From positions 62,001 to 126,000 of IMG/VR virus record IMGVR_UViG_3300000101_000006: a stretch of DNA of 64,000 bases. One strand, written 5' to 3'. The notes beneath the pieces are model-generated. The model had not been told where the DNA came from. It was given only the letters and a program-made list of their open reading frames with translations, and ran no database searches. The DNA comes from a virus. Every line of letters begins with the position of its first letter. Position 1 is the first letter of the stretch. This document shows positions 21,782-40,554 of the stretch, in pieces. The position numbers and the translations under genes are program-made.

Positions 21782-22126
21782 ATGAAACTTACAAAAGAAA
21801 CTTTAAAAAGAATTATTAAAGAAGAATTGGAAGCAACTTTGAATGAAGTGGGAGAAAACCTTGATCCACGCGTCAAGAAAATAGAAGCAGCCACCGGCGG
21901 CATTTTTGAGGCAGGCAAGGGCTCAGCCCACGTCCAAAGCGTAATGAATGCGAAGGGCTTAGGCACATTTCTGGCTGAGTTTGACGACGGCGAAGACACG
22001 TTCGTTTATTTGTTTGACGCCGGCAACGGAATGGTAAAGTTTGAACAAGACGGAAAAGCAACAAAAGAAATGACACCAGAACAAGCGGGTCAATATCTTA
22101 AGACACAATCGTCTCATCATTTTTAA
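21782..22126 (+). CDS. Small protein with putative capsid-targeting leader (copy 1)
   Basis: A protein of 114 residues whose first 15 (MKLTKETLKRIIKEE) are identical to those of the products at 24819 and 32857, while the rest is unrelated. The leader is basic and amphipathic, followed by an acidic run, like the leader of T4 internal proteins; IKE fits the [IL]xE cleavage rule of gp21-type proteases. The remaining body (from about residue 25) is acidic at its middle (FDDGEDTFVYLFDAGNG), with a predicted beta hairpin, no known domain. Ribosome site GGAGAA. I infer a virion-packaged cargo protein; alternatively the leader could be a shared regulatory or binding helix. Confidence 0.7.
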   Translation: MKLTKETLKRIIKEELEATLNEVGENLDPRVKKIEAATGGIFEAGKGSAHVQSVMNAKGLGTFLAEFDDGEDTFVYLFDAGNGMVKFEQDGKATKEMTPEQAGQYLKTQSSHHF

Positions 22127-22140
22127 TCTAAACTTTTTAC

Positions 22141-22169
22141 TTGACAAACCTTTAATAACGAGTTATCTT
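22141..22169 (+). promoter_or_regulatory. Sigma70-like promoter for primase gene
   Basis: TTGACA (22141-22146), 17-base spacer, TATCTT (22164-22169). The primase starts at 22187 after an AAAGGAGG ribosome site. Confidence 0.75.
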
Positions 22170-22186
22170 ATTAAAGGAGGACAACT

Positions 22187-23122
22187 ATGGAAGCAGATAA
22201 ATTAAAAATCCTAAATAATATTTTAGGTTATCCAAAGAGACAAGGGCAAAGTGAATACTATTACCACTGCCCTTTCTGTAATCATCACAAAAAGAAATTA
22301 GCAATCAATTTTAATAACGGGTTTCACTGCTGGATTTGTGATGCGAGAGGCAAGAACATTTACCGAATTGTAAGAAAATTCGGCACTTACCAGCAACGAC
22401 AAAAGTATCTTGAACTACAAGGACGGCTTGATCTAAACGAGTTCGACAATCTATTCAAAGAACTTAACAGTATCGAAGAGAAGCAACACATTGACTTGCC
22501 CGAAGAGTTCATCTCGTTGTGCAACAAAGACTTGCCAACGGAGACAACAGACGCATTCCGCTATCTATCATCTCGAGGCATTGGTCGGAGAGAAATATTA
22601 AAATGGAAAATTGGCTATTGTAAGGAGGGCCGTTATGCAGGAAGAATTATTATACCGTCGTTTGACATGGATGGAGATTGCAATTACTTCATCGCTCGCA
22701 GTTACGTTGGGCATTCTTATAGGTACCTCAACCCTCCAGCGGATCGTGACATCGTATTTAATGAATTGATGATTGACTGGGATGAACCAATCGTTCTCGT
22801 CGAAGGTGTGTTTGATGCTATCGCAGCAGGAGAAAACGCAATCCCAATCCTTGGCTCAACCCTTAGAGAACAGTCACGCTTGTTCCAAGCCATCGCAATC
22901 CACGACACACCAGTCTACATGGCTCTTGACTATGACGCCGAGAAGAAAGCGGAATGGATCATCAAGTCTCTTCTCAAGTATGACCTCGAAGTTTTCAAGA
23001 TTCCAATTGACGAAGAAGATGTTGGAGAAATGGGCGAGAAAGAGTTTAAAGAGAGAATGCAGACAGCAGCACCAATCAAGAACGAAATGTATTTCTTTGA
23101 AAAACTTTTAGAAAACATTTGA
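22187..23122 (+). CDS. DNA primase (zinc finger plus Toprim)
   Basis: Residues 28-51 hold a CxxC...CxxC zinc finger (CPFC and CWIC) of the CHC2-like type that recognises template in DnaG-type primases. A Toprim domain follows near residue 200: VLVEGVFDA gives the conserved glutamate, and ALDYDAE near 247 the Asp-x-Asp metal pair. Length 311 is short for DnaG and comparable with compact phage primases; a helicase domain is absent, so it would work with a separate replicative helicase outside the window. Very strong ribosome site. The last codons overlap the promoter of the next gene. Confidence 0.88.
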   Translation: MEADKLKILNNILGYPKRQGQSEYYYHCPFCNHHKKKLAINFNNGFHCWICDARGKNIYRIVRKFGTYQQRQKYLELQGRLDLNEFDNLFKELNSIEEKQHIDLPEEFISLCNKDLPTETTDAFRYLSSRGIGRREILKWKIGYCKEGRYAGRIIIPSFDMDGDCNYFIARSYVGHSYRYLNPPADRDIVFNELMIDWDEPIVLVEGVFDAIAAGENAIPILGSTLREQSRLFQAIAIHDTPVYMALDYDAEKKAEWIIKSLLKYDLEVFKIPIDEEDVGEMGEKEFKERMQTAAPIKNEMYFFEKLLENI

Positions 23123-23147
23123 CAAGTCATTTGAATCATGTTACATT
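23119..23147 (+). promoter_or_regulatory. Extended -10 promoter overlapping the primase stop
   Basis: TTGACA (23119-23124) contains the primase TGA; 17-base spacer; TACATT (23142-23147) preceded by TGT. Drives the gene at 23170. Confidence 0.8.
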
Positions 23148-23169
23148 ATTAACAACAACGGAGGATAAC

Positions 23170-24003
23170 ATGGGTGGGAACATCTTTAAAAACATCGCAA
23201 CGACAATTCCTAGAGATAGAGTTGAGCCAACAATAGAAGCATACACTAAGGCACTTGGAGAAATCTTTCCAATGAAAGCTCATTCTCTCACTTTCTTTAA
23301 GCCAGTAGGTTCCGCAGGCAAGAAACCGATCTCTGGTGACTTAGATCTTGCAATCGACTCAACCCACATCACACGCTCTTTCACTTCAACTGAATTGCAA
23401 AAGTGGGGAATCGAATGGGATGATTGGAACGATCTCTATACAAAGATACACAAACGTTCGCGAACGGCAACTTATGAAATGTCTAAGATGCGTGCATTGT
23501 TGACTCTAATCTCTGCAAAGATTGCGGAGAACAACATTGATGTAAATGATAGAGTTACAGCAGGCAACATCTTCACATGCTTTGAGCAGCATGACGATAA
23601 TGGCCCAACAGGAGAGTTTGTTCAAATTGATTGGATGGTCGGAGACATAGATTGGCTTCAATGGTCTTACTATTCACATGGAGAAATAAACCTTAAAGGG
23701 TTGCACAGGACTCAGTTTTTAGTGGCCTTATTTTCAGAGATTGGATACACATTTAGTCACTTTTCCGGCATCAAGAAGAAAAAGACCTCAGAATGGACAA
23801 TTATGTCGCCCGAGGATGCCCTAGAACTTCTTTCAGAGCACTATGGAATGGTAACACATAGCCAAACTCAAACATTCGCTCAGCTCCATTCTTGGTTGCT
23901 TAAGGCAGATTCGGAAGCTTATTTCAGGGTCATTTCTCGCTACAGAGAAATCCTGAGAATACAAAAAGAAAACATCCCAAATGCACTCAGGCATACTATT
24001 TAG
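23170..24003 (+). CDS. Polymerase-beta-like nucleotidyltransferase family protein
   Basis: I place the start at ATG 23170 (MGGNIFKN), which has CGGAGGA upstream and lies behind the promoter; the frame stays open further upstream into the primase end. Near residue 54 the segment KKPISGDLDLAID matches the GS...GDLD motif of minimal nucleotidyltransferases (DNA polymerase beta superfamily), where the two aspartates bind metal; a third could be the Asp of VQIDWMVGD near residue 160. Phage members of this type are usually of unknown substrate. 277 residues, no other domain seen. Confidence 0.65.
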   Translation: MGGNIFKNIATTIPRDRVEPTIEAYTKALGEIFPMKAHSLTFFKPVGSAGKKPISGDLDLAIDSTHITRSFTSTELQKWGIEWDDWNDLYTKIHKRSRTATYEMSKMRALLTLISAKIAENNIDVNDRVTAGNIFTCFEQHDDNGPTGEFVQIDWMVGDIDWLQWSYYSHGEINLKGLHRTQFLVALFSEIGYTFSHFSGIKKKKTSEWTIMSPEDALELLSEHYGMVTHSQTQTFAQLHSWLLKADSEAYFRVISRYREILRIQKENIPNALRHTI

Positions 24004-24013
24004 AAATGATTGT

Positions 24014-24084
24014 GGGGATATAGTATAACGGGATTACATCTGCTTTGCACGCAGAAAATTGCAGTTCGATTCTGCATATCTCCA
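24014..24084 (+). tRNA. tRNA-Ala (anticodon UGC)
   Basis: The cloverleaf is complete by hand folding: acceptor 24014-24020 with 24077-24083 (seven pairs, one G-T), D arm from 24023 with a 3-bp stem, anticodon stem TCTGC/GCAGA (24039-24043, 24051-24055) with loop TTTGCAC giving anticodon TGC at 24046-24048, and T arm TGCAG/CTGCA around loop TTCGATT (24060-24076). The discriminator is A84; CCA is not encoded (CTT follows). A terminator follows directly. Phage tRNAs usually help decode codons poorly served by the host; this phage has a giant alanine-rich protein. Confidence 0.93.
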
Positions 24085-24087
24085 CTT

Positions 24088-24116
24088 CCTTCTGTTTTTG
24101 GCAGAAGGTTTTTTTT
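24088..24116 (+). terminator. Rho-independent terminator after tRNA-Ala
   Basis: CCTTCTG (24088-24094), 7-base loop, CAGAAGG (24102-24108), then eight T. Begins 4 bases after the tRNA. Confidence 0.9.
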
Positions 24117-24127
24117 GCCTTACAATA

Positions 24128-24165
24128 GTTCACTTTGGGCTTTTGTAACTAGTTATAAAGTGAAC
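24128..24165 (+). repeat. Perfect inverted repeat upstream of HNH gene
   Basis: GTTCACTTT (24128-24136) and AAAGTGAAC (24157-24165) are perfect 9-base inverted arms separated by 20 bases, ending about 15 bases before the HNH start codon. It could be an operator, or an mRNA stem-loop that hides the ribosome site of the endonuclease gene, as in some T4 homing endonucleases. Confidence 0.6.
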
Positions 24166-24180
24166 CATGGAGAAAGAACA

Positions 24181-24687
24181 ATGTTAAAAGAAGATCTAAA
24201 AGTGATGCTTGATTCAGGAAGTAGCATAGCCGATATGTCAAACAAAACAGGGAAGAGTAAAACAACGATAAGATATTGGCTAAAAAAGTTTGATTTAAAA
24301 ACAAAGAACGCCATCTACAACAAAAAGAAAAAATACAAATGTGTTACTTGCGGAGAGACTGATAGAAAAAAGATGATGTCCAAAGGTGGCGATAGAAAGT
24401 CTTTTTCTACTTGCAAATCTTGTCATAACAAAGCGACAATAGATCGTGGCCGTCAGCGTAAAATTGAACTGGTAAAGCACATGGGCGGGAAATGTGTAGA
24501 CTGTGGCTACAATAAAAACTATGCAGCGTTTGATTTTCATCACTTAGATGAGACTAAGAAGGATGTAAATTTTAAAAGTATGAGATACTGGTCATCCGAT
24601 AGAGCGAAGGATGAAATGAAAAACTGTGTATTGCTGTGTTCCAACTGTCACAGAGAAAGACATAATCCAGAACAGAACACTATTTAA
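24181..24687 (+). CDS. HNH endonuclease with N-terminal helix-turn-helix (probable homing type)
   Basis: ATG 24181 is chosen because GGAGAAAG lies just upstream and the upstream frame runs through the tRNA. Residues 12-40 (SSIADMSNKTGKSKTTIRYW) form a helix-turn-helix. Cysteine pairs follow (CVTCG, CKSCH, CVDCG), then the HNH core: DFHHLDE with the general-base histidine, and a final NCHRERHN with CxxC (LLCSNC) and the second histidine. The order matches phage-borne HNH homing endonucleases. It sits as a single unit flanked by two terminators beside the tRNA, as expected for an inserted selfish gene. 168 residues. Confidence 0.88.
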   Translation: MLKEDLKVMLDSGSSIADMSNKTGKSKTTIRYWLKKFDLKTKNAIYNKKKKYKCVTCGETDRKKMMSKGGDRKSFSTCKSCHNKATIDRGRQRKIELVKHMGGKCVDCGYNKNYAAFDFHHLDETKKDVNFKSMRYWSSDRAKDEMKNCVLLCSNCHRERHNPEQNTI

Positions 24688-24729
24688 TTTAGAACCTATG
24701 TTCTTCGGAGCTCTCACGCATCCTCTTAG

Positions 24730-24753
24730 CCTCTCTTCGGAGAGGTTTTTTTT
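24730..24753 (+). terminator. Rho-independent terminator after HNH gene
   Basis: CCTCTC (24730-24735), loop TTCG, GAGAGG (24740-24745), then eight T (24746-24753). Confidence 0.92.
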
Positions 24754-24772
24754 GCATTATAGGCATTTAGTG

Positions 24773-24780
24773 ACTATTTA
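24773..24780 (+). promoter_or_regulatory. Putative late promoter core ACTATTTA
   Basis: ACTATTTA 38 bases before ATG 24819, just after the terminator. Its presence in front of a leader-bearing small gene fits late expression with the virion genes. Confidence 0.5.
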
Positions 24781-24818
24781 AGTGAAGATCACCAAACCAA
24801 AGACTTAGGAGTCCACAA

Positions 24819-25130
24819 ATGAAACTTACAAAAGAAACACTAAAAAGAATCATCAAAGAAGAGATGATGCAAGTTATGCATGAAATGGATTCCAACTCAC
24901 CACCATTGCATCCGGATTTAGAATCATTGCAAAAAGCACTTGAAACTTCAGGCCGATTTAAAATCGAACCAGACCAGAGAAATCCAGAAGAATTATCTAT
25001 CGAAACAGAAACTGACGAATGGACTGCTTCCGTGGACCCAGCTGGTGACCTAATTTTGGACTTCGACAACAGCAATAGCGAACAAATAGTTGGTAAAGAC
25101 GAAGCGCTTAAGTTTTTATTAAATCTATAA
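24819..25130 (+). CDS. Small protein with putative capsid-targeting leader (copy 2)
   Basis: 103 residues. The first 15 residues equal the leader of copies 1 and 4 (MKLTKETLKRIIKEE), followed by MMQVMHEMDS. The body is acidic and unlike the other copies (a short proline-containing loop NSPPLHPDLES, then two predicted strands WTASVDPAGDLILDF). No known domain. Ribosome site AGGAGTCC. A late-type promoter motif precedes it although it lies among early genes, which supports packaging of the product into the head. Function of the body unknown. Confidence 0.7.
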   Translation: MKLTKETLKRIIKEEMMQVMHEMDSNSPPLHPDLESLQKALETSGRFKIEPDQRNPEELSIETETDEWTASVDPAGDLILDFDNSNSEQIVGKDEALKFLLNL

Positions 25131-25133
25131 AAA

Positions 25134-25343
25134 ATGAAAGCACTAGACCTTCACGGGTCTAAACATAAAGACGCTAAACGCAAACTCGAACTATTTATTA
25201 ATAGCAATTGGCGCTGTAGAATGAAGGTTGTTACCGGAAACTCAGAAGCCATGAAGGATCTTGTTTGTTCTTTATTGAACTACTATGATCTAGAATATGA
25301 ACGAGGCGAGTTCCTCGGTTACATAATTGTTGTAGAGCACTAG
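25134..25343 (+). CDS. Minimal Smr-domain-like protein (69 aa)
   Basis: The start MKALDLHGSKHKDAKRKL carries the LDLHG motif of Smr domains (Asp5-His7), and VVTGNSEAMKDLV takes the place of the family's HGKG..L segment. Smr domains of MutS2 and stand-alone Smr proteins nick DNA or cleave RNA; the aspartate and histidine of DLHG are functional there. At 69 residues this is the shortest plausible form. ATG lies 3 bases after the preceding stop with no clear ribosome site, so translation is probably coupled to the upstream cargo-like gene. Confidence 0.65.
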   Translation: MKALDLHGSKHKDAKRKLELFINSNWRCRMKVVTGNSEAMKDLVCSLLNYYDLEYERGEFLGYIIVVEH

Positions 25344-25351
25344 GAGTTATC

Positions 25352-26269
25352 ATGCTATTAGCCTTATTTTTGGCCTGCGGTGGAGACATCGGAATTAGAA
25401 CAACGGACAAGATCCAAGTCTTAGACACAGCAGTCGACGACACAGACATCACAACGGAAGCTTCCACAGAACCTTCACTAGAGCCTTCTAGCGAGCCATC
25501 TATCGAACCATCAACGGAACCGTCCAACGAGCCTCTAGAGGGCACTGTTGGTCTTGTAAATTACAATCTAGAACAAATTGCTTGTCTACAATGCATGGGT
25601 GTTTCTCAAGAAATCACAATTCAGTTCGAAGCAAAGTTTCATGACAAAATAGGCGAGACACATCCAACCTGGTATCCACCATCTGGACAATGTGTGAGCT
25701 CAATGAACCCTGTGTCCATCTTTGTACAAGGAAAGAACATTGGCTCATCACTCAACGTATTCGGAAACCCAAACTCTTTTACAGCATTCAACAACAACTC
25801 AAACATTTATAGTGGGTTCTTGACCGAGTCTCAATATGACCGAGACACTCAGATGAACGTACAAACTCAAGACGGAACATCATTCCAGTTTAGATCAATT
25901 CACGGCTTTGACTTTATCGAGCCATACGAGATGCGCTATGTTGATCCTTCTTATGCCTTCGCAGCAGTTGTTTCAAAGTTTGGAACACAGTTCTCATGGG
26001 GACCATCTGGTGGTCAAGACTTGTTCAACATCACAATCGCAACCTATTCGCCCGATGGTAGTCAACTTCTCGGCGTTGTATCATGTTCTGGACCTGATGT
26101 TGGATACATGAATTTTGATGGATCTTACTTTCAAGCGTATCCTTATTGGTCACTTACTGCGATTCACATGACAAGATTTTCTCAACAAAGAGTTCCATAC
26201 GAAGGTCTCAATGGCTATGTTGATGTGCAACTTGAATGGTCCGTTGTAGGAACTGGTCATATCGAATAA
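25352..26269 (+). CDS. Putative lipoprotein with EPS-repeat linker
   Basis: 305 residues. The N-terminus MLLALFLACGG is a short hydrophobic stretch ending in a lipobox-like LAC (Cys9), followed by an acidic linker with six EPS-type units (TEPSLEPSSEPSIEPS and onward, residues about 38-60), then a 240-residue presumably extracytoplasmic domain with several cysteines (IACLQCMG, QCVSSM, VSCSGPD). Such Glu-Pro-Ser linkers behind a lipid anchor are typical of surface lipoproteins of Myxococcota/Bradymonadales-type bacteria. A phage lipoprotein made in infected cells could block superinfection or alter the cell surface; inference. Signal is unusually short, with no better start upstream. Confidence 0.65.
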   Translation: MLLALFLACGGDIGIRTTDKIQVLDTAVDDTDITTEASTEPSLEPSSEPSIEPSTEPSNEPLEGTVGLVNYNLEQIACLQCMGVSQEITIQFEAKFHDKIGETHPTWYPPSGQCVSSMNPVSIFVQGKNIGSSLNVFGNPNSFTAFNNNSNIYSGFLTESQYDRDTQMNVQTQDGTSFQFRSIHGFDFIEPYEMRYVDPSYAFAAVVSKFGTQFSWGPSGGQDLFNITIATYSPDGSQLLGVVSCSGPDVGYMNFDGSYFQAYPYWSLTAIHMTRFSQQRVPYEGLNGYVDVQLEWSVVGTGHIE

Positions 26270-26286
26270 CTTCCGCTAGTCTCGAC

Positions 26287-26294
26287 ACTATTTA
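26287..26294 (+). promoter_or_regulatory. Putative late promoter core ACTATTTA
   Basis: ACTATTTA 17 bases before GTG 26312, preceded by CCGCTAGTCTCGAC, a sequence also found at 44391. Confidence 0.45.
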
Positions 26295-26311
26295 ATAGTG
26301 GAGGGTCTCAT

Positions 26312-26518
26312 GTGGAGAAGTTTGAAGTCGGATGCTTGGTTAAGTTTTTAGAAGATTTTGAGAGCGAAACGATACCAAATGTTGGAATTGTTTTGGAAGT
26401 GATATCTTTTGATGAACTCGTCGGAGAAGATTTGGGCCAAGGCATTACATGGTACTCTGTTTTGTTCGGAGACATCGACATGGTTGTATCCTCGGAGATG
26501 ATTATTTTGCTTAGCTAA
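26312..26518 (+). CDS. Small hypothetical protein (68 aa), GTG start
   Basis: GTG at 26312 opens MEKFEVGCLVKFLEDFES; an overlapping ATG at 26310 is in another frame and stops after 13 codons. GGAGGG lies 10 bases upstream. The sequence suggests a small beta-barrel with alternating hydrophobics (VGCLVKFLEDF, GIVLEVISFD, WYSVLFGD), like SH3/KOW-type folds. No family recognised. Confidence 0.5.
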   Translation: MEKFEVGCLVKFLEDFESETIPNVGIVLEVISFDELVGEDLGQGITWYSVLFGDIDMVVSSEMIILLS

Positions 26519-26519
26519 C

Positions 26520-26548
26520 TTGACAGAACGGTTGCAACATGTTATATT
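26520..26548 (+). promoter_or_regulatory. Extended -10 sigma70-like promoter
   Basis: TTGACA (26520-26525), 17-base spacer, TATATT (26543-26548) preceded by TGT. Drives the gene at 26572. Confidence 0.8.
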
Positions 26549-26571
26549 ATCTTATACGATGGAGGTATAAC

Positions 26572-26892
26572 ATGAATAAATTTATAGATGACGGCATCAA
26601 GAAGGGTTACGAGTTTCTCGTAATAGAACCACAAGAATGTTACAACGAATCAATTGTTGCGTTCGACAAGGGTCGACTGGTCTATGATACAGAACAATTG
26701 ATGGATTGTTCGAGGAAATATTATGAGTGGGAATATGAGACTGCTATCGAGTGGTTTGAATACAACACCCTATCTCTCACCTACATGGAGGGTGGACCAC
26801 TTTTTTTTGAAGAAGATGAGCAATTCTACTTGACACATAACGATGAACGTGTTACATTAGAAGTACGAAACAAAATCCTGGAGGATAAATGA
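26572..26892 (+). CDS. Small acidic hypothetical protein (106 aa)
   Basis: ATG 26572 (MNKFIDDGIKKGY) has TGGAGGT 6 bases upstream and sits 23 bases after a promoter -10; an earlier in-frame start at 26539 would lie inside the promoter. The protein is acidic and rich in tyrosine and tryptophan (YYEWEYETAIEWFEY). No family recognised. Its last 60 bases contain the promoter of the next gene, and its stop overlaps that gene's ATG. Confidence 0.65.
   Translation: MNKFIDDGIKKGYEFLVIEPQECYNESIVAFDKGRLVYDTEQLMDCSRKYYEWEYETAIEWFEYNTLSLTYMEGGPLFFEEDEQFYLTHNDERVTLEVRNKILEDK
26830..26858 (+). promoter_or_regulatory. Promoter inside a coding region, for the Mre11-Rad50 fusion
   Basis: TTGACA (26830-26835), 17 bases, TACATT (26853-26858) preceded by TGT, all within the coding sequence of the upstream small gene. 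The next gene starts 31 bases after the -10. Confidence 0.75.
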
Positions 26893-29800
26893 AACGAATC
26901 GCACACATATCAGACACACATATCAGAAACCTCAAATACCATGACGAATATCGTCACGTCTTTAAGGAAATTTACGACAGTCTAAAGCAAGAGCAGCCAG
27001 ATTATATCGTCCACACAGGTGACTTGGCTCACACGAAGACCCAGTTGTCTCCGGAGTACTTCGAGGTCGCATCAAACTTCCTTAAGTCTTTAGCAGATAT
27101 TGCCCCAACTATTATGATCTTGGGGAACCACGATGGTAATTTAAAAAATGGAGACCGTCAAGATGCAGTCACGCCAATCATCGCAGCACTGCAGCATCCA
27201 AACTTCACTTTGCTGAAGAACTCTGGTGAATACTCCCCAGAACAAGGTTTGACCTTTAATGTTCTTTCTGTATTTGATAGAGACAATTGGCAAAAGCCAT
27301 CGAACAATAGTTCTGTAAATATTGCTTTGTACCATGGCGCCATACAGGGTTCTCTAGTAGGCTCAGATTTTTCCTTAGATCATGGGGAGGATGACGCGTC
27401 AATCTTCACAGACTTTGATTATGCTATGTTGGGAGATATTCATAGAACCCAATATCTAGATCGCGAAAAGCGAGTATGGTATGCTGGCTCTACCGTTCAG
27501 CAGAACTTTGGAGAAAGCGAACTCAAAGGATATCTTATTTGGAACATTCACTCAAAAGACAAGCATAGTGTTGAGAAACGCTTGTTCCGATCTCCGCGTC
27601 CGTTTATAACTGTTGAGCTAAACAAGGATGGGACACTACCCAAGAGAGATGTACCTCGAAGTTCTAGGTTGCGATTGGTATCAAAATACAATTTGCCCGT
27701 GGCGAAGCTCAAGAGGGCTTGTGATTACGCACAAGTTAAGTGGAAGCCATACTCTGTTAGTTTTGTAAACAAAGCGTCACATAGCTCCATGGGAGCCTTA
27801 GGTGATGGTAAATTAGGCAAAGCAATCAACATGAGAGATGAGAAGAATCAAGAAAAGTTCTTGATTGAATTCTTGAAGACAAAAGAAATAGAAGAACAAA
27901 TCAAAGATCGAGTTTTAGAGTTGTCTCGCGAGTACTTGAAGAAAGTAAGCAATGGTAATGACGTGTCAAGAAATGTTCTTTGGGATATTAGGAAAATGAC
28001 TTGGAACAACCTATTTAATTACGGAAAGGGCAATTCTATTGATTTCAGCAAGCTAAATGGTCTTGTTGGTATCTTCGGAAAAAACTATTCAGGCAAGTCA
28101 TCTATCATTGACGCTGCCTTGTTTGGGCTCTTTAATACAACATCCAAAGGAGAAAGAAAGAATGTCCATATCATCAATCAAAACAAGGAAAGAGCTATTT
28201 GTAACCTCGAGATCGCTGTCGGCGATGATGTTTATCAAATTACTCGAAGCCTCGAGAAAACAACCGGAAAGTCTAAAGGCAGGGAAGTCGTCTCGGCGAA
28301 AACTGAACTAGACTTCACAAAGCTTACTCTTGGGACTCAAGCAGAGTCCAAGAATGGCGATACTCGAAATAAGACAGATGAGAACATTCGAAAGACTTTT
28401 GGGTCGCTTGAAGACTTCATGATGACCTCCCTAGCAGCACAGAACGACTCTTTTGGTTTTCTAAACGAAGGATCAACCAAGCGCAAAGAGATACTTGCGA
28501 AGTTTCTTGACTTGCAAATCTTTGATCAAATGCACAAACTAGCTAAGTCAGATTCGTCAGAAATGCGGGGAGTCATCAAGCATCTAAATTCAGTTGATTG
28601 GTCCAAGAAGTTGGATAGAGCCAAAAGTGAATTTGAAGAAATAGTTGAAGATGTCGAAACACAACAGTTACTATGCGAAAAGCATACCGCCAGACTACAA
28701 GTGTTAAATGAAGAGCAGCAACTCATAAAAGAGCAAGTCGAAGCAGCATCTCAAAAAGACATCGATATTGATGCTTTAAAGAATACACTCTCAAAGGCTC
28801 AAAAATCCCTCCTAAAGAACTCTACCGAAATGGATAGACTATCTACCGAGATTAAGTCTAAGCGCTCGCAAATCGAAGCTTTGCACCTTAGATTGCCTAG
28901 TTTACTAGAAGAGTCAACTCTTGCTCAAGAAGAACTTGATACTCTCGAGATATTAAAGGAAGAACTTAAAAAGACTCAAAAGTCCCTAGATAAGTCAAAG
29001 CGAGAAAAAGCAAACCTTCAGTCCAAGATCGATATGCTCCATGACCACGAGTATGACCCAGATTGCAAATTCTGTTCTGATAATGAATTTGTCAAAAAGG
29101 CAGAAGAAGCAAAGGTTACCATTGTGGGAGTAGAGGATCGTGTTGAGACTCTTGTTTCTCAAATGCTTGACCTTAAGATGAAAGCATCATTGATCAATGA
29201 AGTTTATTTGAAAGCAGTTGTTAGAGACTACGAAGCAAGAAAGGACACATTGGCCAAAGCAAAGGCGGATTCTCGCAACCTATCTCTACAGCGGGAGAAT
29301 TGCGAAGGCAAGGTTTCTCTTATGGAACGTAGAATTAAAGATTGTGAAGCAGATATTGCTTATTATAACGATAACATCGAAGCCTATGAAAACTTAACTT
29401 CATTGCGTCGAGACCTGCAGGCTATAACTAAGACAGTCTCCATCAAGCAATCTGAGATTAAAAAGTGTGATGCGAAAGTTTTAGAGTTTATGTCCGAGAA
29501 GGGTTCTGCGAAGAGAACCATTGAAGAAGCGCAAGAGCGGATAAAACAGATTAAAGATGCCGAGAGAGATTATATAGCCTACGACTTGTTTGTGCAAGCA
29601 ACTCATGCAAATGGAATCTCTTATGAGGTAATCAAATCTATGCTTCCAGTTATCAACGAAGAAATCCAAAAAATACTTTCTTCAATTGTTGACTTCCAAG
29701 TGTTCTTCGCAGAGGATGGAGATAAATTAGAAATATATTTGCAACATCCAAAATACGATCCTAGACCATTGTCCATGGGATCAGGCGCAGAAAAAACTAT

Positions 29801-30050
29801 TGCTTCTATGGCTGTTCGTCTCGCACTAATCTCAGTGTCTTCTTTACCAAAACCATCACTGTTTGTTCTAGACGAACCAGCAACTGCTCTGGATGCGGAT
29901 CACATGGAGGGCTTTACAAGATTGTTGCAGATGATTAAGGCTCAATTTAAGACTGTTCTGCTAATTACTCACCTAGATACATTGAAAGATGTCGTTGATA
30001 AAACAATTGAAATCGATAAGTCTGATGGGTATGCGCACGTCAATTTGTAA
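26889..30050 (+). CDS. Single-chain Mre11-Rad50 (SbcDC; T4 gp47-gp46) recombination nuclease
   Basis: 1053 residues. The N-terminus is a metallophosphoesterase: ISDTHI (residues 7-12), HTGDLAH near 42, GNHDG near 79, and a later GDIHR motif. From about residue 370 a Rad50-type ATPase follows: Walker A GKNYSGKSS near 396, a long coiled coil, a zinc-hook DCKFC near 725, the signature SMGSGAEKT near 962, and Walker B FVLDEPATALD near 991. In T4 and bacteria these are two proteins (gp47 339 aa, gp46 560 aa; SbcD and SbcC); here they are fused in one frame without a stop. The complex resects DNA ends for recombination-dependent replication. Own promoter at 26830, ribosome site TGGAGGA. Confidence 0.93.
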   Translation: MKRIAHISDTHIRNLKYHDEYRHVFKEIYDSLKQEQPDYIVHTGDLAHTKTQLSPEYFEVASNFLKSLADIAPTIMILGNHDGNLKNGDRQDAVTPIIAALQHPNFTLLKNSGEYSPEQGLTFNVLSVFDRDNWQKPSNNSSVNIALYHGAIQGSLVGSDFSLDHGEDDASIFTDFDYAMLGDIHRTQYLDREKRVWYAGSTVQQNFGESELKGYLIWNIHSKDKHSVEKRLFRSPRPFITVELNKDGTLPKRDVPRSSRLRLVSKYNLPVAKLKRACDYAQVKWKPYSVSFVNKASHSSMGALGDGKLGKAINMRDEKNQEKFLIEFLKTKEIEEQIKDRVLELSREYLKKVSNGNDVSRNVLWDIRKMTWNNLFNYGKGNSIDFSKLNGLVGIFGKNYSGKSSIIDAALFGLFNTTSKGERKNVHIINQNKERAICNLEIAVGDDVYQITRSLEKTTGKSKGREVVSAKTELDFTKLTLGTQAESKNGDTRNKTDENIRKTFGSLEDFMMTSLAAQNDSFGFLNEGSTKRKEILAKFLDLQIFDQMHKLAKSDSSEMRGVIKHLNSVDWSKKLDRAKSEFEEIVEDVETQQLLCEKHTARLQVLNEEQQLIKEQVEAASQKDIDIDALKNTLSKAQKSLLKNSTEMDRLSTEIKSKRSQIEALHLRLPSLLEESTLAQEELDTLEILKEELKKTQKSLDKSKREKANLQSKIDMLHDHEYDPDCKFCSDNEFVKKAEEAKVTIVGVEDRVETLVSQMLDLKMKASLINEVYLKAVVRDYEARKDTLAKAKADSRNLSLQRENCEGKVSLMERRIKDCEADIAYYNDNIEAYENLTSLRRDLQAITKTVSIKQSEIKKCDAKVLEFMSEKGSAKRTIEEAQERIKQIKDAERDYIAYDLFVQATHANGISYEVIKSMLPVINEEIQKILSSIVDFQVFFAEDGDKLEIYLQHPKYDPRPLSMGSGAEKTIASMAVRLALISVSSLPKPSLFVLDEPATALDADHMEGFTRLLQMIKAQFKTVLLITHLDTLKDVVDKTIEIDKSDGYAHVNL

Positions 30051-30058
30051 GTGTCTCG

Positions 30059-30066
30059 ACTATTTA
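30059..30066 (+). promoter_or_regulatory. Putative late promoter core ACTATTTA
   Basis: ACTATTTA 19 bases before ATG 30086, preceded by GTCTCG as at 26281. Precedes the probable lysis cassette and terminase genes. Confidence 0.5.
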
Positions 30067-30085
30067 GTTCCAAAATGGAGGTACC

Positions 30086-30391
30086 ATGATGGGACTGAAA
30101 GAAGACATAGCTGAAAAGCTAGCAGGTATTGACTGCAAAGATAAGATTAAGGAGACTCTGAATGAACACAAAGAAGACATTCAGAGAGCTCTTTATCTTG
30201 ATACAAAAGACAAAGGATTATTTGATGCAGTTCAGGAAAAAGTTATTTCTCGCAAGCTGCTTGTATTTGGTGTGGCTACTGGGTTACTTTATTGGAACAC
30301 AGGTCTTGATGCCGATACTTGGGGCATGATCGCAATGACCTACATCGGTGGACAAACCGCAATAGACTTTGCGAAGGTATGGAAAGGATGA
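30086..30391 (+). CDS. Putative holin-like membrane protein (101 aa)
   Basis: The ATG pair at 30086/30089 follows TGGAGG. Residues 1-54 are charged and helical; from about 56 come two hydrophobic segments (LLVFGVATGLLYW and TWGMIAMTYIGGQTAI). The YIGGQ-type segment recalls class of short phage holins or holin-like proteins, which permeabilise the inner membrane at the end of infection. No endolysin gene is adjacent. Overlaps the next gene by ATGA. Confidence 0.5.
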   Translation: MMGLKEDIAEKLAGIDCKDKIKETLNEHKEDIQRALYLDTKDKGLFDAVQEKVISRKLLVFGVATGLLYWNTGLDADTWGMIAMTYIGGQTAIDFAKVWKG

Positions 30392-30756
30392 TTGAATGGT
30401 TAAAAGATAAGTGGGAATTACTAGTATCAGCCTTTGTTGTGCTGACTGTCTTTGTTCTCGGTCGTAAAAGCAAGCAATCACAAGTCCAAGCCGCCGAAGC
30501 AAAATCGGCAGCAAAAGAAAAAGAAATCGAAGTAATTACAAAGACAGCTTCAGACGAAAGACTAGAGAAGGCTCTAGCAAGAAAAAAATATTCTGAATCA
30601 CGACTTGCTTTAATGAAAAAGAGAAACACAGCGCAAACCGATTTGGAAAGACACGACATTGAAAGAAAGCTTGAACTCATCGAGTTGGCCAAAGAAGATC
30701 CTGATGCGATAGATCGTATCTTGATGGAAGAATACAATATCGCAAAACTAAAATGA
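30388..30756 (+). CDS. Membrane-anchored coiled-coil protein, candidate inner spanin
   Basis: ATG 30388 overlaps the previous stop (ATGA). A single N-terminal membrane helix (LLVSAFVVLTVFVLG, about residues 10-25) precedes a strongly charged, alanine-rich coiled coil (QVQAAEAKSAAKEKEIEV onward) of about 90 residues. This topology fits an inner-membrane spanin or another lysis accessory protein. 122 residues. The assignment relies on topology and the position between a holin-like gene and another secreted coiled-coil gene, not on a family match. Confidence 0.55.
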   Translation: MIEWLKDKWELLVSAFVVLTVFVLGRKSKQSQVQAAEAKSAAKEKEIEVITKTASDERLEKALARKKYSESRLALMKKRNTAQTDLERHDIERKLELIELAKEDPDAIDRILMEEYNIAKLK

Positions 30757-31160
30757 TTTTATTGCTAATTTCATTAGTCTCCGCGCAGCCGCTTATGACC
30801 TCTCTCGATGAAGGTCAGGCGGCTCCTTTTGGTGGCAGACTATTCAACGACGAAGCAGTTGCTTCAATAATAGCAGGTAAAGAGTTCGCAGAGCAACAAT
30901 GCGAGATCCAAATGTCTCTAGACTATTCTCTTCAATTAGCGGAAAAACAACTCCAGATTGACTATTTAGGCATTGAAAAGGAAACTTTGCAAAAGAAGCA
31001 CGATGCCTTGATTGAAATTCGAGATCAAGAAATCCAATCCTTGCGCAAACACATCAACCCGAAAAGATCTATGTGGGTCTTTTTTGGTGGGTTTACATTA
31101 GGAACAGCATCTTCTCTTGCGACATATTACGCAGTGGTGGGAATAAATGATACGAATTAG
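30753..31160 (+). CDS. Signal-peptide coiled-coil membrane protein, lysis cassette candidate
   Basis: 135 residues. A short signal peptide (MILLLISLVSA, predicted cut before QP) is followed by LDEGQAAPFGGRLFND, then a coiled coil (residues 45-105) and a C-terminal membrane segment (VFFGGFTLGTASSLATYYAVV). Proteins with this APF.G.L motif and layout lie in many phage lysis modules near holins and spanins. Start overlaps the previous stop by 4 bases and the end overlaps the next gene by 14. Confidence 0.6.
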   Translation: MILLLISLVSAQPLMTSLDEGQAAPFGGRLFNDEAVASIIAGKEFAEQQCEIQMSLDYSLQLAEKQLQIDYLGIEKETLQKKHDALIEIRDQEIQSLRKHINPKRSMWVFFGGFTLGTASSLATYYAVVGINDTN

Positions 31161-31575
31161 ATTAAAAAGAATGACTCAAAAGATAGTCGACATGGTTTGT
31201 CCAAAACCAACACAAGATCTAGAGCTGAATACAAGAAATAGAGACTCGGCAATCAAAGCTGAGCATATTAAGTACGGTCCTTTGAATGTCGATGATCCCG
31301 GAGACTATTGGAATGAAATAGCAGAACACTGGGATACAGACGTGGATGCAGCAAAGAAGTCGCTTTGTGGGAATTGTGTTGCTTTCGATATAAGCCCCAG
31401 AATGGATGAGTGTATGCCCGGCACAACATCTGATGATGATGGACGACTTGGCTACTGTTGGATGCACAATTTTAAGTGTCACTCCGCTCGTAGCTGCTAT
31501 ACGTGGGCAAAAGGTGGACCTATCGAAGAAGATAAGGTTTCTTATGATTGGCAAAAACGAGGTGAAAGTGAATAA
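31147..31575 (+). CDS. Cysteine-rich protein, possible metal or Fe-S cluster binder
   Basis: 142 residues. The C-terminal half has a regular cysteine pattern: LCGNCVAFD, DECMPG, GYCWMHNFKCHSARSCYTW, ending in KGGP. Seven cysteines plus one or two histidines in about 50 residues suggest a metal or iron-sulfur site, comparable with high-potential iron-sulfur-like phage proteins. No enzyme motif. ATG 31147 overlaps the upstream gene by 14 bases; ATG 31171 is an alternative start. Common next to terminase genes in marine phages as far as I recall; function unknown. Confidence 0.6.
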   Translation: MIRIRLKRMTQKIVDMVCPKPTQDLELNTRNRDSAIKAEHIKYGPLNVDDPGDYWNEIAEHWDTDVDAAKKSLCGNCVAFDISPRMDECMPGTTSDDDGRLGYCWMHNFKCHSARSCYTWAKGGPIEEDKVSYDWQKRGESE

Positions 31576-31939
31576 GAAAGATCCAAATTATGCTGTGAAG
31601 GTTGAGAAAGCCATCGCAGAGAAATATGGCAAAGAAGCCATAGTAAATCCCAAGTCAGAATGGGACGATGATAAAGAAAAAGAGTATCTAGCTGAACTAA
31701 AGAATAACTATCGCAATGATAAATCGGAAAGCGAAAGAGTTGAGCTTGGTGGAGTTTTAATATCAAAAGAACTACTTAATAAAGAATCCAAGCGTTCATG
31801 TCCAACCTGCAACACTTATTCATTCAAATCCGTTGATGACTTGTACATGACGAAATTTGATTGTTGCTACAAATGTTACATCCAATGGATAGAAGGTCGG
31901 GAAGAAAGATGGAAAAAAGGTTGGAGACCAAACAAATGA
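31568..31939 (+). CDS. Zinc-ribbon protein (123 aa), GTG start
   Basis: GTG 31568 is preferred: it has GAGGTG just upstream and overlaps the previous stop; the frame's earlier methionines lie inside the upstream gene. The C-terminal 50 residues form a zinc ribbon, SCPTCNTYSF and FDCCYKCYIQWIEG, followed by a basic tail WKKGWRPNK. The N-terminal half is charged and helical. Sits two genes before cargo-like genes and three before the terminase; DNA or RNA binding is plausible, function unknown. Confidence 0.6.
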   Translation: MNKKDPNYAVKVEKAIAEKYGKEAIVNPKSEWDDDKEKEYLAELKNNYRNDKSESERVELGGVLISKELLNKESKRSCPTCNTYSFKSVDDLYMTKFDCCYKCYIQWIEGREERWKKGWRPNK

Positions 31940-32496
31940 GCAAAGAAACATTAGAAATTATTAGAGGACTTTCCCAAGCAGCAGCCAACGGTTCATACGA
32001 TGGCGGCCAGCATATGGAAAACTACTCACACGACGGACAAGTTCGAAAGACAGGGCTTATGCGAGAAGAAGGAATTCCTCTTCTTGACAAGCGAGTCATC
32101 GACGGCTTCAAGGTCAAGTTCTATGGGGACTCAATGATTATCAATTATCAATCCGATGTTATGATGAGAGATTTAAAGGATGATGGATTCGAAAATGAAA
32201 TCGTAAGAACATTGAACGAAGTCAAGAAGTTCTTGCAAAAAGAATATAAGACAATCACCGGTAAATCAGTATCTTTGTCTGCTAAAGGTGATCCACAAAT
32301 TATCGTACAAACAACGTCTAGAGTTCGTACATTTGTGCAAGCATATCAACACTATAAGATTGGTGGCTTGAAGATGGATCAAATCAATGCGCCATCAGAA
32401 ACCAACACTCGAGACATCACAAAGAAATTCTTAGAGACCGCAAAAGCAAAGCGCCCTCAAAATGAAAAGATCAACCCAAAGGATAATCAGAAATGA
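31936..32496 (+). CDS. Hypothetical protein upstream of terminase (186 aa)
   Basis: ATG 31936 overlaps the previous stop. The protein has a flexible start (GSYDGGQHMENYSHDGQVRK), an alpha/beta middle (VIDGFKVKFYGDSMIINYQ; FVQAYQHYKIGGLKMDQIN), and a basic C-terminus ending KINPKDNQK. The last nine codons and stop are repeated 360 bases downstream in the micro-ORF at 32786, so the 3' end of this gene marks a duplication boundary. No family recognised; position between accessory genes and terminase suggests head assembly or packaging. Confidence 0.6.
   Translation: MSKETLEIIRGLSQAAANGSYDGGQHMENYSHDGQVRKTGLMREEGIPLLDKRVIDGFKVKFYGDSMIINYQSDVMMRDLKDDGFENEIVRTLNEVKKFLQKEYKTITGKSVSLSAKGDPQIIVQTTSRVRTFVQAYQHYKIGGLKMDQINAPSETNTRDITKKFLETAKAKRPQNEKINPKDNQK
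32472..32496 (+). repeat. Direct repeat, copy A (end of 31936 gene)
   Basis: The sequence CAACCCAAAGGATAATCAGA and the following AATGA at the 3' end of the gene reappear, apart from the first base, at 32836-32860. Both copies run directly into a MKLTKETLK-type gene. Confidence 0.85.
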
Positions 32497-32786
32497 AACT
32501 CACGAAAGAAACATTAAAGCAAATCATCAAAGAAGAGATGGAAGCTGCTCTGGAAGAGGGTGAATTTAAATCTCCAACATTTCAAGCAAAAGTGGATGCT
32601 GAGAGAAATAAAGATGCTATTGAACCTCTAGTCAACAAATATCAGACTGATCAAGATTATAAAGCTCCTCAGTATATTGATGACATCATGAGCGTTGCTC
32701 CTCAAATTACTCGTGAGCAAGCTATTGCCATAGCAGAATTGTTCTCTAGTGAAGTTGGAATGGAAGACGAATACTATAGTAAGTAA
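32493..32786 (+). CDS. Small protein with putative capsid-targeting leader (copy 3)
   Basis: 97 residues beginning MKLTKETLKQIIKEEMEAALEE, one change (R to Q) from the other leaders. After the leader the protein is an acidic helical body (SPTFQAKVDAERNKDAIEP; ITREQAIAIAELFSSEVG) unlike copies 1, 2 and 4. The [IL]xE rule for gp21-type proteases is met at IKE and again at ALEE. ATG overlaps the upstream stop and its TAA overlaps the micro-ORF at 32786. Two genes upstream of the terminase, thus beside the head genes, consistent with a packaged internal protein. Body function unknown. Confidence 0.7.
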   Translation: MKLTKETLKQIIKEEMEAALEEGEFKSPTFQAKVDAERNKDAIEPLVNKYQTDQDYKAPQYIDDIMSVAPQITREQAIAIAELFSSEVGMEDEYYSK

Positions 32787-32860
32787 TGAAACTCACCAAA
32801 AATGAAATTCTTAGAACTCTCAAAACGAAAAAAATTAACCCAAAGGATAATCAGAAATGA
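32786..32860 (+). pseudogene. Chimeric micro-ORF, recombination scar between cargo genes
   Basis: A 24-codon frame. Its first 23 bases (ATG to AAAAATGAAAT) are identical to the start of the terminase gene at 33222, giving MKLTKNEI; its last nine codons, KINPKDNQK plus stop, equal the end of the gene at 31936. It is therefore a fusion of a terminase start and a 31936 end, exactly what a tandem duplication of [31936 end, cargo gene, terminase start] would leave. It may be translated through coupling (ATG overlaps the upstream TAA) but is unlikely to be functional. Confidence 0.85.
32836..32860 (+). repeat. Direct repeat, copy B (end of micro-ORF)
   Basis: Second copy of the 24-base repeat that ends the gene at 31936, again running into a MKLTKETLK-type start codon at 32857. 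Confidence 0.85.
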
Positions 32861-33213
32861 AACTAACGAAAGAAACATTGAAGCGCATCATCAAAGAAGA
32901 GATGGAAGCTGTTATGGAATATAACAGAGAGCTCGTTGGCGGCGACTCCAGTCTGGATCGGATTGAAGGAATCAAGACTACACTATCTAAAGTTAACTTT
33001 ACCAGCGACCCAGATGATCAGTTCATGTATAAACTGGCCAAGCAGCTTGGAGATAATCAATACGTCATGATGCCTGATCGTGGAGATGGATTTCTCTTCG
33101 TCAAAGGACCAGATGGAACTCTTTTGTTTGCTGCGAATCATCGTAACAAACAACGCGCCACGGAAGCTCAAAAGGAATTGGAAGCAAAAGGATACAAAAA
33201 AGTAGACTTATAA
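32857..33213 (+). CDS. Small protein with putative capsid-targeting leader (copy 4)
   Basis: 118 residues: leader MKLTKETLKRIIKEEMEAVME, then a mixed alpha/beta body (GIKTTLSKVNFTSDPDDQFM; VMMPDRGDGFLFVKGPDGTLLF; a C-terminal helix RATEAQKELEAKGYKKVDL). The body resembles none of the other copies. Overlaps the micro-ORF stop by four bases and ends 8 bases before the terminase start. Upstream boundary and downstream boundary match those of copy 3, so the two payloads occupy equivalent, duplicated slots. Confidence 0.7.
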   Translation: MKLTKETLKRIIKEEMEAVMEYNRELVGGDSSLDRIEGIKTTLSKVNFTSDPDDQFMYKLAKQLGDNQYVMMPDRGDGFLFVKGPDGTLLFAANHRNKQRATEAQKELEAKGYKKVDL

Positions 33214-33221
33214 GAGGCTAG

Positions 33222-34799
33222 ATGAAACTCACCAAAAATGAAATCGTTAAAGAACTTGTAAAATGCGGAAAAGACCCTCAATATTTTATTGATAACTACT
33301 GCAAGATCTCCCATCCAATGCATGGGCAAATTCCTTTTAAGACTTATGACTATCAAAAGGACATGCTCAAGAACTTTAACGATTATCGTTTTAACGTAAT
33401 ACTAAAAGCAAGACAGCTTGGGATCTCAACCATCTCGGCTGCTTATGTTGCTTGGTTCATGCTGTTTCATCGAGAAAAGAATGTTCTCGTTATCGCAACG
33501 AAACTATCCACAGCGGTAAACCTCGTAAAGAAGGTCAAAATGATCTTCAAGAACCTTCCGTCTTGGATGATGATCGCGAAAATTGCTACAGACAACAAGC
33601 AATCATTCGAGTTGACAAACGGCTCTCAAGTAAAGGCTGGAACCACATCAGGCGATGCTGGTCGTTCAGAAGCCCTGTCGCTTCTCATTATAGACGAGGC
33701 AGCGTTCGTTGATGGCCTCGAAGAGCTTTGGACGGGTCTTTACCCTACTTTGTCTACAGGGGGCCGCTGTATCGCTCTGAGCACCCCTAACGGCGTTGGA
33801 AACTGGTTTCACAAGTCCTACACTGAAGCTGAGAATGAGATGAATGATTTCTTTCCCACAAAGTTAATGTGGGATGTCCACCCAGAAAGAGACGAAGAGT
33901 GGTTCTCAAAAGAGACGCGAAATATGTCCAAGAGACAAATAGCGCAGGAGCTTGAATGTTCATTTAATGCATCAGGCGAAACAGTTATCAACCCTGAAGA
34001 TTTACAGAGGATAAGCCACTTAGTTAAAGACCCAGTCTATAGAGCTGGGTATGATAGAAATTATTGGATTTGGGAAAAACACCAAGAAGGCATTCCCTAT
34101 TTGTTAGTAGCGGACGTTGCCCGCGGCGATGGTGCAGACTTTAGTTGTTTCCACATTGTGAGAATCGACAACATGACCGTGGTCGCTGAATATCAGGGCA
34201 AGCCAGACTTGGATATGTATGCCGATATTTTATATTCTGCAGGAAATGAATACGGCAGTTGTCTATTGGTAGTTGAAAATAACGGCATCGGCATTGCTGT
34301 ATTGGAGAAGCTTAAGGACCTTGACTATAAGAAACTTTACTATTCTATCAAATCAACACATGATTATGTCGAGTCCTATCTAGCCGAAAATGACGACAGA
34401 GCCGTACTTGGCTTTACAACATCAACCAAGACAAGACCCTTAATCGTAGCTAAATTGGAAGAATACGTTAGAAACAAACTAATTAATATACACTCCAATC
34501 GTGTTTTTCACGAACTAAAAACTTTTATTTGGCACAACGGAAAGCCTCAAGCTATGCGCTCTTACAATGATGATTTGGTTATGTCCCTCGCAATTGCATG
34601 TTGGGTACGCGACACGGCCCTCTCAGAAAACGAAAGAGATATGGCTTACAAAAAGGCAATGATCGGTGGTTTGATGAAGTCTACAACGACTATGAACACT
34701 CAAATCAAGGGCCAAAAGATCTATAAAGAAACGTTCGAGCAGAAATACGAGGAGGAGATAGAAAAAGCAAAAAACTTTTTGTGGATATACAAAGGATAA
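33222..34799 (+). CDS. terL: Large terminase subunit, DNA packaging ATPase/nuclease (gp17-like)
   Basis: 525 residues. ATPase: Walker A-type KARQLGIST near 62-70 and Walker B LLIIDEAAF near 156. Nuclease: ADVARGDGADF near 296, VVENNGIG near 348, and SYNDDLVMSLAIA near 446, which supply the acidic RNase H-fold residues that cut concatemers. The protein docks on the portal and pumps DNA into proheads. Somewhat shorter than T4 gp17 (610). ATG has AAGAGG upstream. Start of the head operon: portal follows after 3 bases. The small terminase subunit is not identifiable nearby; one of the unknown genes upstream could serve. Confidence 0.97.
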   Translation: MKLTKNEIVKELVKCGKDPQYFIDNYCKISHPMHGQIPFKTYDYQKDMLKNFNDYRFNVILKARQLGISTISAAYVAWFMLFHREKNVLVIATKLSTAVNLVKKVKMIFKNLPSWMMIAKIATDNKQSFELTNGSQVKAGTTSGDAGRSEALSLLIIDEAAFVDGLEELWTGLYPTLSTGGRCIALSTPNGVGNWFHKSYTEAENEMNDFFPTKLMWDVHPERDEEWFSKETRNMSKRQIAQELECSFNASGETVINPEDLQRISHLVKDPVYRAGYDRNYWIWEKHQEGIPYLLVADVARGDGADFSCFHIVRIDNMTVVAEYQGKPDLDMYADILYSAGNEYGSCLLVVENNGIGIAVLEKLKDLDYKKLYYSIKSTHDYVESYLAENDDRAVLGFTTSTKTRPLIVAKLEEYVRNKLINIHSNRVFHELKTFIWHNGKPQAMRSYNDDLVMSLAIACWVRDTALSENERDMAYKKAMIGGLMKSTTTMNTQIKGQKIYKETFEQKYEEEIEKAKNFLWIYKG

Positions 34800-36743: not shown

Positions 36744-37548
36744 TAAGAAAAGAAATACCGCTTTTCTTTACGAATGTCTGATTCGTGAATTAACAAAAGC
36801 AATTTTACAAGAAGACAAAATGAGACAGTCAAAAGTCAAGGGTCTTTTACGCGAATTCTATACAAAAGGAAAGCCTCTTTCGAAAGAGTTGGATCTATAC
36901 AAGTCGCTCTTAGAAAGCAAGTCGCTTAAGCAAGACTTCTCAAAGAGACTCATGGTCGAGACAAAGAAAGACTTCGATAACCTAAACAGGAAAGATATCT
37001 TCAACGAACAAACCTCGTTGATCAACAAGATCAACAAGGCCTTGGGCAACAAAGCGTTTTCAAACTTTGTTCCAAACTATAAAGACATCGCGACAATAGG
37101 TCTATACTTTCAAAACTCAAACCTTGGAGCAAAAAAGAGAATCATGCTCGAAGACAAAGTGGTAAGTTTTCTTACTAGATTGGACGAAAACCAAACAGAA
37201 ATGAAACCAGTTGATCAACTTGAGTTTAAAATGTTTGTCAAAAGATTCAACAACACATACCAACACTCTTTACTTAAAGAACAGAAAGAACTGCTAAGCA
37301 ATTTTATAGTGTCTTTTTCCGACAATGGACTGGGCCTGAAGTCTTATCTAAATGATGAAATCGGTCGCCTCAAGGAAGCCGTTGCTACCGAAATTGTAGA
37401 AGGAAGCGTTTCGCCTATAAATGAAAATTTCAAGAAAGTTAGAGCAAAGCTGGATGGTTATGCGAAAACTCCTTTAAATTCGAAGATTATTGAAGAAATA
37501 TTTTATATTCAAGATCTCTTAGCGGAGGTAAAGCGAAATGTCAATTAG
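36733..37548 (+). CDS. Hypothetical head-operon protein after portal (271 aa)
   Basis: Starts with MKHNKKRNTAFLYECLIREL behind AAAAAGGA and overlaps the portal end by 11 bases. Predominantly alpha-helical and lysine-rich with coiled-coil character, no membrane segment. A very similar gene style follows portal in other T4-like marine phages, in my recollection as an uncharacterised protein. By position it could be a head-assembly factor or prohead core component. No cleavable leader of the MKLTKE type. Confidence 0.6.
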   Translation: MKHNKKRNTAFLYECLIRELTKAILQEDKMRQSKVKGLLREFYTKGKPLSKELDLYKSLLESKSLKQDFSKRLMVETKKDFDNLNRKDIFNEQTSLINKINKALGNKAFSNFVPNYKDIATIGLYFQNSNLGAKKRIMLEDKVVSFLTRLDENQTEMKPVDQLEFKMFVKRFNNTYQHSLLKEQKELLSNFIVSFSDNGLGLKSYLNDEIGRLKEAVATEIVEGSVSPINENFKKVRAKLDGYAKTPLNSKIIEEIFYIQDLLAEVKRNVN

Positions 37549-40360: not shown

Positions 40361-40554
40361 TGGCTACCAATTACAAAATGAAACCTCGCAAAGGCGAGGC
40401 GATGGAAAAATTCATCAAGCGCTTCACAAAAAAGTGCAAAAAGCTTGGAATAATCCAAGAAGCTCGAGACCACAGACATTTCACTTCTGAGTCTGAAAAA
40501 AAGAGACTTGCTCGTAAAAAGTGGAGAGCGCGCATAAAGAAGAATAAGGATTAA
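40360..40554 (+). CDS. rpsU: Ribosomal protein bS21 homolog
   Basis: 64 residues, very basic. The sequence follows the bS21 pattern: an N-terminal strand, GEAMEKFIKRFTKKCKKLGI (helix with the R-F-x-x-x-C spacing), IIQEARDHRHFTSESEKKR, then a lysine/arginine-rich helix. Phage bS21 homologs are known from other aquatic phages and are thought to replace or supplement the host protein on the 30S subunit, where it acts at initiation near the anti-Shine-Dalgarno. ATG 40360 overlaps the previous TAA. Within the head cluster rather than the early block. Confidence 0.75.
   Translation: MATNYKMKPRKGEAMEKFIKRFTKKCKKLGIIQEARDHRHFTSESEKKRLARKKWRARIKKNKD

Follow-up and report, generated by a model that had tools for sequence, protein, structure and literature searches.

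Four small genes in a 64,000-nucleotide stretch of the virus record IMGVR_UViG_3300000101_000006 (positions 62,001 to 126,000; hereafter the window, whose own coordinates we use) begin with a common N-terminal leader, MKLTKETLK(R/Q)IIKEE, after which their sequences diverge. We conclude, with a probability of roughly 0.84, that this leader is a capsid-targeting propeptide, and that a protein carrying it would be docked, cut, packaged and ejected with the DNA. It is highly probable that the system works like the capsid-targeting system of T4; on the best reading, what is new relative to T4 is an additional leader class and a much larger cargo. We strongly infer packaging and cutting from the sequences, and we infer ejection. 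A T4-type capsid-targeting propeptide had been proposed in a sequence-only reading of the window, and the available sequence tests agree with it in the spread of the leader, the T4-type heads, its place in the operon, the cleavage motif and the exchange of leaders.

The common start and the divergence behind it, which that reading had described, were confirmed by translation of the open reading frames and by pattern and profile searches. All four frames lie on the plus strand, at 21782-22126 (114 residues, MKLTKETLKRIIKE/ELEATLNE/VGEN..., slashes marking predicted cleavage sites), 24819-25130 (103 residues, MKLTKETLKRIIKE/EMMQVMHE/MDSN...), 32493-32786 (97 residues, MKLTKETLKQIIKE/EMEAALEE/GEFK...) and 32857-33213 (118 residues, MKLTKETLKRIIKE/EMEAVMEYNREL..., directly upstream of terL); we call their leader class A. 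Pfam and PHROGs searches of the four bodies gave no convincing family. The 32493 protein is akin to leader genes of loci L008 and L009 (39% over 91 residues), and 32857 has orthologs in L005 and L006 at the equivalent position; the AlphaFold model of the 32857 protein, with a predicted local distance difference test score (pLDDT) of 50, was used only for the helical leader. Applied to the whole 127,431-base record, a degenerate pattern found exactly these four leader genes and a reversed control pattern found none. A profile built from environmental leaders added two genes of the record outside the window, at G000:30445 (26.7 bits) and G000:24512 (20.2 bits). The shared leader is not due to chance, because profile matches of at least 20 bits numbered 30 in five phage genomes (839 kb) and 0 in 1.05 Mb of random IMG/VR contigs.

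The differences that do exist among the window leaders are mostly synonymous: six pairwise comparisons gave 29 synonymous codon differences and 3 nonsynonymous. Within-locus comparisons across many loci gave 669 synonymous and 535 nonsynonymous differences in leader codons, against 113 and 2602 in the bodies. The leader is therefore kept at the protein level, and it is not a recent DNA copy. These counts bear on the idea that the shared start reflects recent duplication of a promoter, ribosome site and first codons, spreading as DNA with no protein function. The near-identical bases just 5' of 32493 and 32857 mean that local duplication did occur; as the main cause of the shared start, however, duplication is refuted by the codon test, the motif is retained across many distant phages, and we give the idea practically no credence. 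The almost identical DNA in question occupies 32456-32496 and 32786-32860, both ending ...INPKDNQK and then a stop, with a 24-codon frame, MKLTKNEILRTLKTKKINPKDNQK, situated between the two leader genes; together they are a sign that a leader junction was duplicated locally before a new body was acquired. The terminase at 33222 also begins MKLTKNEIVKEL, as does a short frame just 5' of it; this start does not fit the leader motif.

The leader is restricted to viruses, and among these to phages whose heads are of the T4 type. A degenerate DNA pattern for class A, with the consensus MKITKSQLKQIIKEELxxVLxE, matched at least 120 stretches in viral contigs, frequently two or three per locus. In 257 Gb of bacterial and archaeal genomes it matched 8 stretches, several on short or clearly phage-derived contigs, and a bacterial, non-phage origin was rejected on this count. 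The sequence-only reading had overlooked a related second leader, at the start of gene 38116 (MNQKLIMENWRRFLKE). A search begun from this start found at least 120 stretches, part of them on contigs that also hold class A, and defined class B, with the consensus MKL(L/I)(L/M)ENWRK(Y/F)L-x-E. Searching related phages for the leader on unrelated bodies, as had been suggested, produced 564 unique leader proteins of the two classes, which form 397 body clusters among the matches listed.

Several of these clusters contain homologous bodies under both leader classes, the pattern expected if both leaders serve the same machine. For example, a P-loop kinase has class A in L095 and class B in L407 (64% over 210 residues), and the same exchange is seen between L135 (A) and L079 (B) at 76%, L092 (A) and L408 (B) at 62%, and L118 (A) and L335 (B) at 35% over 151 residues. 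In the family of window gene 38116, L042 and L007 carry A and 13 homologs, including 38116 itself, carry B. One lysine-rich cross-class cluster was left aside as unreliable. Two random control loci, L313:4024 and L219:6874, hold a weaker leader-like sequence, KxKQLRRIIREAIxEVLNE, about 15 residues past a possible start methionine in longer proteins; L313 additionally holds terminase, portal and protease homologs. Judged by title and abstract, none of the papers found to use the phrase 'capsid targeting sequence' seems to report a system of this kind in environmental phages.

The window phage possesses T4-type head genes, all on the plus strand. Database matches identify the terminase large subunit (gp17, 33222..34799) and the T4-type portal (gp20, 34803..36743), and the major capsid protein Gp23 lies at 52931..54721. 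The gp21 homolog reported earlier at 39311 is a prohead protease (39311..39934) that matches Pfam family PF03420 (Peptidase_S77) at E = 3e-33, with the DHP and GISSRG motifs conserved. Of 50 leader contigs 29 encode this family, compared with 4 of 32 random contigs that were 30 kb or longer (Fisher p = 6e-5). We considered the 21 leader contigs without it as counter-examples and rejected them: they also lack Gp23, and in the four that have a portal it lies near the contig end, so that such contigs look like fragments.

For an unbiased view of placement we used 80 loci fetched by the gp21 protease alone. Leader genes occurred in 50 of them, and the 94 matches were without exception on the same strand as the protease. 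Of these, 45 began no more than 2 kb from the protease start and 46 were located 6-10 kb upstream, in the region around terL and before it; the 354 kb that lie 2-12 kb downstream of the protease in these loci contained none. The conserved gene order is terL, portal, g36733, g37538, a slot, g38866, another slot, protease, g39935, and in T4 the core genes 67 and 68 lie between portal and protease. A shared amphipathic helix is by itself unspecific, and part of the leader genes stand outside the head operon; both points would suit a helix with no packaging role that docks on a different phage or host complex (membrane, replication or transcription machinery). The tight linkage of the leader to the head operon and its strand, the T4-type heads, the head-protease motif and the exchange of class A with a T4-like class B leader all argue the other way, and we judge such a helix very improbable. 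Beside the head operon the window has a ribosomal protein S21 homolog (40345-40554), found also in relatives including Microcystis phage Mel-JY01, and at 26889-30050 a single 1053-residue protein fuses an SbcD/gp47-like phosphoesterase with an SbcC/gp46-like ATPase, the T4 counterparts being encoded by separate genes.

The head-protease motif is visible at the end of the leader. Its conserved part ends in II(K/R)E in class A and (F/Y)LxE in class B, that is, in hydrophobic-hydrophobic-x-E, the same motif as the capsid-protein cleavage site of the clade. The predicted cut in that protein, LL(R/K)E/(S/A/T), aligns with the T4 gp23 cleavage site FLTE/A; the window Gp23 has LLRE/S (E59), which resembles the leader end. 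The leader end fits the gp21 motif (I/L)xE, as the originally proposed cleavage after IKE would require, but the cut is probably not solely there: in about one class A leader in three, a further site of this kind ends near residue 22. Between residues 17 and 25 such a site is present in 110 of 307 class A leaders, compared with 7 and 8 in equal intervals further in, and the residue behind it is mostly G, A, Q, D or S. Of the four window leaders, three contain one (TLNE, VMHE, ALEE).

Leaderless homologs and a predicted structure both place the putative start of the body at this motif. A nucleotidyltransferase-like family has FLNE/GGNVF where a leader is present (more generally (F/Y)(L/V)xE/GGN(V/I)F), M-GGNIF in the leaderless relative of class B cargo at window 23173..24003 (plus strand), and M-GGNVF in phage immuto. 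The first motif of a phosphatase family begins immediately past the predicted site. The AlphaFold model of the 38116 protein drops below a pLDDT of 50 in a single segment, residues 1-17, with the site at FLKE16.

The bodies themselves are diverse. Class B bodies match zeta-toxin-like and other P-loop kinases, NUDIX, guanylate kinase, M23 peptidase, GDSL lipase, protein kinase and 2H phosphoesterase, and two of them (L182:13254-14360 and L033:4765) begin VVYHYT(N/A)G..., which may recall ADP-ribosyltransferase folds. Gene 38116 (38116..38850, plus strand, 244 residues, MNQKLIMENWRRFLKE/EKK..., between portal and protease) has acetyltransferases as its best PDB matches, at an E of only 1.7e-3 and with low TM-scores, and from its model the body looks GNAT-like. 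Class A bodies are mostly small and without a known family; the matches obtained were TseH-like, pentapeptide, sigma-70 region 2 and kinase. Counter-defence or early takeover enzymes would be the likeliest functions of this cargo. A few frames hold at least two leaders, one of them opening with a class B-like leader and containing class A further in, and would possibly be polyproteins that the head protease could split. Those with a leader at the start and a second inside or at the end (G023:146355-148322, G001:187873, L106:6560, L082:3518, L113:4345, L045:4959) may be polyprotein cargo or fused genes. A cysteine-rich, leaderless relative of class B cargo, DLELNTRNRD...CGNC, lies at 31147..31575 on the plus strand; the annotation given to its relatives, high potential iron-sulfur protein, is a putative one. 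Its homolog at L431:19656-20390 (Actinomycetia phage DSL-LC01) directly precedes genes with a capsid maturation protease annotation, although the phage is different in other respects.

Small bodies without a family would also be expected of prohead core (scaffold) parts, whose bodies would act as fillers or core peptides, degraded or retained in the head, and not as effectors. The leader genes do sit at the T4 gp67/gp68 position, and the conserved gene right after the protease (39935..40360, plus strand), a possible core protein, has a leader-like N-terminus. The bodies, though, turn over between related phages, whereas a core part would be conserved, and they include folded enzymes (P-loop kinases, NUDIX, guanylate kinase, M23 peptidase, GDSL lipase, and TseH-like and GNAT-like proteins). 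We therefore consider it unlikely that the leader proteins are core parts. The N-terminus of gene 39935, MNKEQLRKTLKPLIKECIKEVIFEEG, has two hydrophobic-hydrophobic-x-E sites at nearly the spacing of the class A leader, the first being kept in 31 of 44 homologs. The conserved gene after the portal (36733..37548, plus strand), a weak candidate core protein, has an N-terminal YECLIRE with leader-type spacing in 43 of 63 homologs. A general-motif scan of the N-termini of the phage's predicted genes returned seven gene-like matches, namely the four window leaders and genes 38116, 39935 and 36733, together with two minus-strand reading frames. The class A leader may derive from the 39935 protein or share a binding partner with it.

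The residues that matter in T4 allow a closer comparison. In the T4 leader MKTYQEFIAE, residues 4 and 7 serve targeting and residues 8 and 10 processing (PMC9026906); these are positions -6, -3, -2 and 0 relative to the Glu. At the same positions class B has W, F/Y, L/I and E, and class A has L, I, I and E. The likeness to the T4 leader claimed by the sequence-only reading is direct in class B but not in class A. A class B matrix ranks T4 IPII and IPIII 4th and 5th among 1122 T4 starts, which is modest support. Class B fits membership in the T4 capsid-targeting type on all tested features except a decisive sequence match, and class A appears as a variant with other residues at the targeting positions.

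Several observations count against the capsid-targeting interpretation. Class A is without the T4 aromatic residues at -6 and -3, and its matrix ranks the T4 internal proteins low, 226th of 1122 or lower. The residue after the class A site (P1') is almost always Glu, as opposed to the S/A/T that follows the capsid site. Some leader genes are distant from the head operon (in G018 and G023), and a few leaders are internal or C-terminal in their proteins. Finally, the pattern used to collect class A fixed several leader positions, which makes the residue frequencies there partly a matter of construction; leaders found only via the protease gene show the same conservation (L8 96%, I11 86%, I12 95%, E14 98%).

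If the leader is a capsid-targeting propeptide, its N-terminal helix (hydrophobic-x-x-hydrophobic-hydrophobic-x-Glu) would dock the protein on the prohead core while the head is being assembled. Cleavage by the gp21-type protease would follow, after the Glu and, for many leaders of class A, at the second site eight residues on as well. This would free a folded body within the head, to be packaged alongside the DNA and ejected together with it when the phage infects. We also lean, by a narrow balance, towards a wider proposal, that these phages have a general protein delivery system in which two interchangeable leaders serve an open-ended range of several hundred cargo families, with enzymes (kinases, nucleotide hydrolases, peptidases and an acetyltransferase-like protein) and a few multi-leader polyproteins among them, and in which the head would transport all of this cargo and release it at infection. 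Since the bodies of ejected phage proteins have nothing in common, such proteins are difficult to detect. If the capsid-targeting interpretation is true, a 15-residue search lists candidate ejected proteins of uncultured phages, here several hundred families whose bodies are mostly uncharacterised, and the leaders are new tags for loading proteins into phage heads.

The packaging claim is testable in a cultured phage. By terminase, the nearest cultured relatives are Flavobacterium phage immuto (47%) and Microcystis phage Mel-JY01 (44%). Direct searches of cultured phages with 22-residue leader queries, short queries being weak, gave no useful match; the immuto leaders, three on class A leader proteins and three on FLxE-leader proteins, all upstream of the terminase, were found only by inspection of its head region. 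The class A leaders are those of QQO92331, QQO92332 and QQO92346, and the FLxE leaders those of QQO92334, QQO92349 and QQO92350; the full name of this phage is vB_FspM_immuto, and it grows on Flavobacterium sp. LMO8. A literature search found no published virion proteomics for immuto.

Among known systems the closest is T4 IPI-IPIII. The T4 internal proteins are diverse defence proteins with only the targeting sequence in common (PMC3012670), and the restriction enzyme that is blocked differs between Ip1, Ip2 and Ip3 (PMC12373910). The leader proteins described here resemble them in having a 10-20-residue N-terminal leader on unrelated small proteins with a gp21 cleavage motif at its end, in cargo that differs between phages, and, for class B, in matching the functional residues 4, 7, 8 and 10 (PMC9026906, PMC3012670). 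They differ in class A, where Leu and Ile replace the T4 aromatics and a tandem second site is frequent, in far more cargo families, many of them enzymes, in the two leader classes within one phage, and in some leaders that are internal in longer frames. T4 Alt, a packaged and ejected ADP-ribosyltransferase, is likewise a larger enzyme in the head that is trimmed by gp21, but its propeptide, MELITELFDE, is unlike the leaders here, and none of the leader proteins could be confidently identified as an Alt homolog. The inner-body and ejection proteins of phiKZ and SPN3US also have N-terminal propeptides, which a gp21-related protease removes by cutting after Glu; several of these are longer than 100 residues, no short leader is shared, and the reported sites AQE, ALE and AVE differ from the motif here (PMC5694885). 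The T4 prohead core proteins gp67 and gp68 occupy the equivalent operon position, between gp20 and gp21, but they are parts of the core, whereas the slot here would hold variable cargo, and gene 39935 is the better core candidate.

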